DNA of 10,000 nucleotides from Asticcacaulis sp. (GTDB lineage: Bacteria > Pseudomonadota > Alphaproteobacteria > Caulobacterales > Caulobacteraceae). Each line of letters starts with the position of its first letter. The stretch's first letter is position 1. The stretch covers positions 1 to 10,000 of the forward strand of contig NZ_JAIWNX010000176.1 in the NCBI RefSeq assembly GCF_020217185.1, read 5' to 3'. Below the pieces are notes generated by a model. The model was not told the DNA's origin. It saw only the letters and a list, made by a program, of their open reading frames with translations, and made no database searches. Positions 8,964 to 9,199 of this stretch are shown here, one piece after another. A program made the translations under genes and the position numbers.

Positions 8964-9032
8964 AGGTCACGTCTCCTGCGTCAAAAAAAGGTTTGGCGGG
9001 AGGCGCGAGGTGTTGGGTTTTCTGTGAAACCG

Positions 9033-9053
9033 GCCCCGCGCGTTCCGCGGGGC
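9033..9053 (-). promoter_or_regulatory. Attenuator-type stem-loop in the asd leader
   Basis: On the minus-strand transcript, GCCCCGCG (9053-9046), loop GAACG, CGCGGGGC (9040-9033) forms a perfect 8-bp GC stem. The 3' arm is part of a 12-base sequence (plus strand ACCGGCCCCGCG at 9029-9040) that occurs again at 9094-9105 inside the leader ORF. The 5' arm can therefore pair with either copy, giving two exclusive structures. The stem is followed by CGGTTTCACAG, not a proper U-run. A T7 run (8989-8983) occurs only near the asd ribosome site. Whether control is by termination or by hiding that site is open. Confidence 0.6.
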
Positions 9054-9080
9054 TTCGTCCAGATGCCTTGGCTTACACCG

Positions 9081-9152
9081 TCAGCACGACCGGACCGGCC
9101 CCGCGATGCGGGTCGGCTTGGTAGTGGCTTTGGTGGTGGTCGTCTGGAACAT
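9081..9152 (-). CDS. Threonine-rich leader peptide of asd (23 residues)
   Basis: A short ORF begins with ATG at 9152-9150, preceded by AAAGG seven bases upstream, and ends at TGA 9083-9081. The peptide starts MFQ, continues TTTTKATTKPT and ends RIAGPVRSC. Seven of 23 residues are Thr (positions 4-7, 10, 11, 14) and two are Lys, both end products of the pathway that asd feeds. It lies 117 bases before asd on the same strand. A stem-loop overlaps its 3' part (CCCGC at 9112-9108 with GCGGG at 9104-9100). This is the architecture of an amino-acid attenuator, in which a ribosome slowed at Thr codons changes leader folding. A possible -10 element TATAAG lies at 9199-9194 on the minus strand without a good -35. 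Function is inferred. Confidence 0.75.
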   Translation of the reverse strand: MFQTTTTKATTKPTRIAGPVRSC

Positions 9153-9199
9153 GAAAGCGCCTTTACCGGGAATGAGGGGTTTTGTAAACTGCTCTTATA

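Follow-up and report, generated by a model that had tools for sequence, protein, structure and literature searches.

A Leader ORF and Alternative RNA Helices Upstream of asd2 in Asticcacaulis and Its Relatives: A Probable Translational Attenuator for Aspartate-Family Amino Acids

The asd2 Locus and Its Leader ORF

The window analyzed here, a 10,000-nucleotide stretch of Asticcacaulis sp. DNA, carries on its minus strand (7908–8963) a gene for aspartate-semialdehyde dehydrogenase. The product matches the NCBIfam profiles NF011456 (474 bits) and TIGR01296 (417 bits), each above its cut-off, and the start codon is the ATG at 8963–8961. This is the second asd copy of the genome; the other lies on contig C152 and is 51% identical to it. 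The window's gene is called asd2 below, and the universal other copy asd1.

Upstream of asd2, on the same strand, a leader ORF of 23 codons (9081–9152) encodes MFQTTTTKATTKPTRIAGPVRSC, and its stop codon lies 117 bases from the asd2 ATG. The motif AAAGG is found at 9164–9160, 7 bases ahead of the leader ATG. Between the leader and asd2, a GC-rich stem has its 5′ arm GCCCCGCG at 9053–9046 and its 3′ arm CGCGGGGC at 9040–9033. A second, identical copy of CGCGGGGC is located within the leader ORF (9105–9098), as is CCCGC at 9112–9108 (minus strand). A first-pass annotation had read this arrangement as a threonine attenuator, and the positions that it gave for the ORF, the AAAGG, the stem arms, the second CGCGGGGC copy, the CCCGC and the 117-base gap were all confirmed in the sequence. 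The RNA of the window folds better than 197 of 200 shuffles, and in its own genome the asd2 leader is the sole match to the element model at E < 0.4. An Rfam search of 7500–10000 with E up to 5 returned no leader family reaching its gathering score; the sub-threshold matches at about 9770–9890 belong to a different inverted repeat and were discarded.

Two other features of the region were noted. An ORF divergent from the leader (9277–9762, plus strand) encodes a secreted-looking protein with pentapeptide-like repeats, and it is followed at 9805–9850 by a long inverted repeat between A and T runs that has the look of a terminator.

Conservation and Codon Content of the Leader

Orthologues of asd2, 66–100% identical, were found in 56 of the 199 family genomes. 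The leader ORF is present in all 55 orthologues with readable upstream DNA, for example as MSMMTAIKATTKPTR, MSVVMTKAIIRKTTR and MQLAATKIITRKTTR. The 56th was left out of the count, its gene beginning at a contig end, and the element model matches the end of a different contig of that genome. The same layout in 55 of 55 orthologues places it beyond chance and bears out the earlier proposal of an unannotated regulatory leader peptide ahead of asd: the ORF, its codons and the alternative stems are all kept in relatives. No such leader was seen in the 18 upstream regions of asd1 that were shown (the C152 copy and its relatives).

The 5′ half of the leader is rich in codons for Thr, Ile, Met and Lys, the amino acids made from aspartate semialdehyde. 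Across the 55 leaders, these four account for 452 of the 762 codons in the 5′ half versus 44 of the 580 in the remainder. Among codons starting with A, the 5′ halves have 452 for Thr, Ile, Met or Lys versus 3 for Asn, Ser or Arg, while in 33 asd2 genes the corresponding numbers are 1457 and 588. Ile is encoded by ATT in 63/72 leader cases and in 45/460 cases in asd2 genes, and Lys by AAA in 89/101 and 26/366 cases, respectively; the leaders thus use Ile and Lys codons that are rare in the genes that they precede. A need to avoid RNA structure may also contribute to this choice. Codons 14 and 15 overlap the first paired RNA segment (segment 1, see below), so that no independent evidence comes from them. 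The window's own leader has Thr and Lys only among these residues, save the start Met and one Ile behind segment 1. Threonine as the only signal, proposed earlier, is not supported: in relatives, this part of the leader also contains codons for Met, Ile and Lys. An upstream short ORF with codons for the products of the pathway, as expected of a leader-peptide attenuator, is therefore present.

Six RNA Segments and Their Alternative Pairing

Six segments of the RNA, all read from the minus strand, form a chain in which most have two partners. Segment 1 (CCCGC, 9108–9112) pairs with segment 2 (GCGGGGC, 9098–9104), which pairs with segment 1 or segment 3 (GCCCCGC, 9047–9053). Segment 3 in turn pairs with segment 2 or segment 4 (GCGCGGGG, 9034–9041), and segment 4 with segment 3 or segment 5 (CCTCGCGCCTCC, 8999–9010). 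Segment 6 (GGAGACGU, 8969–8976) is the Shine-Dalgarno region of asd2 and pairs with segment 5. For pairing with segment 3, the last seven bases of segment 4 are used together with 9033. In segment 5, bases 9010–9003 pair with segment 4 and bases 9006–8999 with segment 6. Segment 3 is supported by helix alignment and RNAalifold, segment 5 by the helix alignments, RNAalifold and covariation, and segment 6 by its pairing with segment 5 and by the swap test described below.

In the alignment of the 55 asd2 leaders (A1), the five helices are 90–100% paired. The proportion of paired cells is 96.4% for 1:2, 100% for 2:3, 99.5% for 4:5 and 89.7% for 5:6, the last with one mismatch column. The helices fall into two sets. 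The OFF set (1:2 + 3:4 + 5:6) is paired in 94.7% of cells, compared with 42–54% when slid, and the ON set (2:3 + 4:5) in 99.8%, compared with 41–63% when slid. RNAalifold run without a given structure predicted 2:3, 4:5 and the inner part of 5:6. The mutually exclusive pairings suggested at first pass are thus well supported. One helix starts in the leader ORF, as in leader-peptide attenuators, and the Shine-Dalgarno of the gene is paired in one of the two states, as in translational attenuators.

Within the asd2 set, covariation is slight. Double changes were found in two pairs (6 cells) of the OFF set, a pair number reached by 35/500 shuffles, and in one pair (1 cell) of the ON set, whose score is reached by 50/500 shuffles; segment 1 has one pair with a compensating change. 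Little variation is expected here, since most segments have two partners. More was found in 34 diverged elements aligned to model R1, with double changes in 8 of 17 pairs (32 cells), in an alignment that was fitted to the structure and whose elements were hand-picked among the fetched loci. None of 500 shuffles reaches this number of cells and one reaches the number of pairs. Six of these pairs belong to 4:5 and two to the inner part of 5:6, with none in 2:3. The general alignment (A4) was built at a stricter E-value than A3, which held 4 antisense matches.

Partner swapping, which is free of alignment, was applied to 19 representatives of 78 elements; 5 hisS and 2 methyltransferase elements of the 85 were left out, the hairpin finder having chosen another hairpin there. 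Native 4:5 partners pair at −19.9 versus −16.3 kcal/mol when swapped (0/20,000 permutations), and native 5:6 partners at −12.0 versus −10.3 kcal/mol (3/20,000). The same test gave 0/20,000 permutations for 3:4 and 580/20,000 for 2:3. Over these helices, the native partner is the single best of its row in just 3 to 8 of the 19. Together with the conserved ORF and its codon bias, sequence comparison establishes the five helices and, in the diverged elements, the covariation of 4:5 and 5:6.

Promoter and Start of the Leader Transcript

A likely −35 box, TTTACA (9183–9188, minus strand), precedes a likely −10 box, TAAAGG (9160–9165, minus strand), at a spacing of 17 bases. A TTTAC-like motif recurs 38 to 35 bases ahead of the leader start in 52/55 asd2 leaders, and the −10 box is suggested by an A-rich stretch at −14 to −9 across the 55 upstream regions. 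A strict scan of the leader region for the sigma-70 consensus found no promoter-like site. The 17-base spacing would place the start of the transcript at about the leader AUG. The leader ORF is thus probably read from a leaderless transcript. The AAAGG, taken in the first-pass annotation for the ribosome site of the leader, is contained in TAAAGG and is more probably part of the −10 box of this transcript.

Folding Calculation of the Switch

The ribosome was mimicked by masking the RNA up to a given leader nucleotide, and the cost of opening the asd Shine-Dalgarno was computed. Averaged over the 55 leaders, this cost is 6.9 kcal/mol at mask 28, 5.0–5.5 kcal/mol at masks 44–50 and 7.8 kcal/mol at mask 84, which corresponds approximately to a ribosome at the leader stop. 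At mask 46, opening costs less than at mask 84 in 45/55 leaders (mean difference 2.4 kcal/mol) and no less in the other 10; relative to mask 28, it costs less in 52/55. When segment 2 was replaced, the cost at mask 46 rose from 5.4 to 7.0 kcal/mol, the native value being lower in 38/55, and that at mask 84 stayed at 7.8 kcal/mol. Anti-SD pairing by the linker, compared with shuffled linkers, gave a z below −1 in 35/55.

In this calculation, opening becomes cheaper for masks reaching to about leader nucleotides 41–51. With 12–13 bases allowed for the footprint, a ribosome with codons 10–14 in the A site would cover the RNA to near nucleotides 41–53. The early codons (about 4–8) would, by the same model, stall the ribosome too far upstream for the full effect. 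In none of the states does the Shine-Dalgarno become largely unpaired at equilibrium (the mean unpaired probability does not exceed about 0.1), and the switch would therefore be a weakening of its pairing; the opening cost was taken as the measure because the unpaired probability changed little. Of 47 elements outside the asd2 set, 31 follow the mask trend, with the hisS and dapA groups hardly doing so; the Shine-Dalgarno was picked here by a purine score and looks wrong in a few cases (e.g., L260 and L268).

Spread Across Alphaproteobacteria

At E 1.1e-15 or better, model R1 matches 62 of the 199 family genomes. All 56 that have asd2 are among them, and in the other six the element precedes another asd that is 42–46% identical to asd2. 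A midpoint-rooted tree of 46 Asd proteins places asd2 within an alphaproteobacterial clade, next to actinobacterial Asd; the other lineage with the leader branches far from asd2, and asd1 forms a third group. Since the two leader-bearing lineages lie so far apart, the element serves two asd lineages. A contig scan of the best 80 asd loci, mostly actinobacterial, found the element in Sphingosinicella microcystinivorans (L173), in Alpha proteobacterium L41A (L172) and, as a weaker match (26.7 bits), in a Reyranella MAG (L174); the other 77 had no model match below E 0.1. The plasmid search for the element gave no match.

The scan of the order, with E up to 0.1, matched 56/249 genomes, many of them weakly, and model R2, with E up to 0.01, matched 46/385 genomes of the class. 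Among the loci that were read, the codons of the leader vary with the gene. Thr-rich leaders precede thrS (L272, L274, L276, L279 and, weakly, L278). His-rich leaders with a related RNA layout precede hisS at eight loci of family genomes (L145, L155, L157, L159, L160, L161, L165 and L170; the model start is off for L145 and L157), and leaders with two or three Lys precede dapA (L148, L275). NCBIfam confirms thrS for L272 and L276, hisS for L155 and L160 and dapA for both loci, while the remaining thrS and hisS loci were assigned by sequence likeness. Finally, four genomes of the genus carry a third asd paralogue (L082–L085) whose leaders, such as MTFITRTTTTTKTMASGPG, have Thr, Ile, Lys and Met codons and precede a GC stem with a T run behind it. 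The L082 copy of this paralogue has one in-frame TAG.

Several loci are recorded as side observations. The thrS genes of L272 and L276 match profile positions 170–564 of 565 only, so that the N-terminal part is missing; they may be a second, inducible ThrS. GNAT acetyltransferase genes (L156, L158, L166, L167, L168 and L169; assigned by Pfam for L158) lie behind leaders like AANPSGCNAATLAG with the same kind of RNA. Weaker model matches precede a methyltransferase gene (L146, L147; leader with Met, Ile and Thr) and an isochorismatase-like gene (L149, L151, L163; leader with Thr and Lys). At the hisS locus L159, the opposite strand (192–359) gives a match just above threshold to the Rfam sRNA family CC3513; none of the literature matches listed for this sRNA names CC3513. 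L144 is a second copy of the leader element that has decayed, with no gene found downstream, in a genome (G011) that also has an intact one. The matches at L153 and L281 were set aside as having a chance look, and that at L258 because the downstream frame matched no family.

Proposed Mechanism and Alternatives

The element itself is real, and it is very likely regulatory; its leader likely senses the aspartate family. We regard it as probable, though well short of certain, that it is a leader-peptide attenuator controlling the initiation of asd2 translation upon shortage of aspartate-family amino acids. Transcription would start at or beside the leader AUG, and the ribosome would read the leader's Thr and Lys codons or, in relatives, those for Thr, Ile, Met and Lys. 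With charged tRNAs it would run on, 3:4 would pair, and 5:6 would hide the asd Shine-Dalgarno (OFF). A stall at about codons 10–14 would cover segment 1 and leave segment 2 free; 2:3 would then pair, as would segment 4 with the 5′ part of segment 5 (ON), and the Shine-Dalgarno would be held by no more than a short CUCC:GGAG hairpin, which a ribosome could open on initiating. The order of elements was correctly recognized at first pass, with a stalled ribosome masking segment 1 and segment 2 being freed for segment 3. The leaderless start, the stalling and the physiological response are what we infer from comparison and folding.

The 1:2, 2:3 and 3:4 layout is also that of classical attenuators, and the comparison with thrABC in the first-pass annotation had implied that transcription is attenuated, with 3:4 terminating on a Thr (or Thr/Lys) signal unless 2:3 forms. 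Such a transcriptional form likely exists in relatives, to judge from the T run behind 3:4 in order family f3 (L126, L128, L152) and in L082–L085; among thrS elements, 3/5 show five or more T over 9 bases. The asd2 leaders themselves give a different picture. No terminator-like site was found in 8900–9350, and a stretch of 9 bases with five or more T behind the 3:4 stem was counted in 1/55 asd2 leaders, by a hairpin finder that may include a T run in the stem (L152). Neither the intrinsic terminator of a thrL-type attenuator nor an Rfam leader family was thus found in this region. In addition, segments 5 and 6, which are conserved, extend the chain to the asd ribosome site. This leaves transcription attenuation unsupported, and under it 4:5 and 5:6 would be without a role. 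We consider it an improbable account of asd2, and control of the start of translation rather than of termination is likely. Termination behind the leader could still be Rho-dependent.

Two further explanations were weighed. The RNA itself could be the switch, as a riboswitch or a protein site, with the ORF incidental; the helices are conserved, and the peptide beyond codon 15 follows the RNA. The rare Ile and Lys codons and the near absence of Asn, Ser and Arg among A-starting codons argue against this, as do leader residues that follow the gene in related elements (His for hisS, Thr for thrS) and the finding of sub-threshold Rfam matches only in the region, with no family at threshold. This reading therefore seems very unlikely. 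Slightly less probable still is an action of the leader peptide in trans, as described for the Sinorhizobium leader peptide peTrpL (PMC7298713), or a benefit to asd2 from ribosome reinitiation, which has been proposed behind leader genes (PMC4833913). The peptide sequence varies while the helices persist, and 117 bases from the leader stop to asd2 is far for reinitiation.

Beyond asd2, we lean slightly towards one modular translational attenuator platform across Alphaproteobacteria, with a terminator form in some lineages. The gene downstream would dictate the codons of a leaderless leader (for asd those of Thr, Ile, Met and Lys, for thrS Thr, for hisS His and for dapA Lys), and the readout would be the six-segment chain of alternative helices ending on the ribosome site. 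At asd, the leader would act as an OR gate, responding to shortage of any one aspartate-family amino acid. If true, one leader sensing all four amino acids would provide multivalent control by one small RNA, and a conserved, covarying leaderless sensor that appears to act on the start of translation, its codons exchanged among asd, thrS, hisS and dapA, would amount to a regulatory layer general to Alphaproteobacteria.

Comparison with Known Systems

The asd product feeds the synthesis of lysine, threonine, methionine and isoleucine. In E. coli, asd was reportedly found by Haziza in 1982 to be repressed by several aspartate-family amino acids, with no typical attenuator. Leaders that sense amino acids are usually described as transcription attenuators. 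In thrL of thrABC, the leader has runs of Thr and Ile codons, the RNA has 1:2, 2:3 and 3:4 alternatives, and an intrinsic terminator follows. The asd2 leader shares the Thr/Ile-codon peptide and the three alternatives, but thrL has the terminator and serves another gene, while the relatives of the asd2 leader would, by their codons, also sense Lys and Met.

Literature searches on asd, thrS and hisS, as well as on leader peptides and translational attenuation, covered little subscription literature; among the matches listed, SEP5 of Sinorhizobium meliloti was the sole like case. This small ORF is translated, has six Thr and three Lys codons and lies in the 5′ UTR of what its authors call an aspartate dehydrogenase gene; it was suggested to be a leader peptide for post-transcriptional control and reported to be conserved only in Sinorhizobium (PMC10117765). 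It resembles the asd2 leader as a small 5′-UTR ORF with clustered Thr and Lys codons but, in the sections available of that report, is presented without an RNA switch and without Ile/Met sensing. The same source describes trpL of Sinorhizobium as a leaderless leader of a tryptophan transcription attenuator (PMC10117765). The asd2 leader, if leaderless as is probable, resembles trpL/peTrpL in this respect and in belonging to an amino acid attenuator of Alphaproteobacteria; trpL/peTrpL differs in being described as acting on transcription and for tryptophan. In Caulobacter, leader CDSs have been named ahead of trpS and ilv genes, and the words threonine and semialdehyde are absent from the main text of that paper as available (PMC4117421). 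In Actinobacteria, leader peptides of cys operons without obvious terminators have been described, and the portion seen of that study reports no conserved RNA structures upstream of threonine, lysine and methionine operons (PMC1262725). Those cys leaders resemble the asd2 leader in being amino-acid ORFs without a terminator and differ in the genes that they precede.

A parallel for the proposed action on translation is of the ermC type, where stalling in the leader ORF frees a hidden Shine-Dalgarno, as in the model for asd2. The ermC leader has been called atypical in that it controls translation without amino acid specificity, according to the part of the source available (PMC2965389). The asd2 element, in contrast, has amino-acid codons as its sensor and a longer chain of helices.
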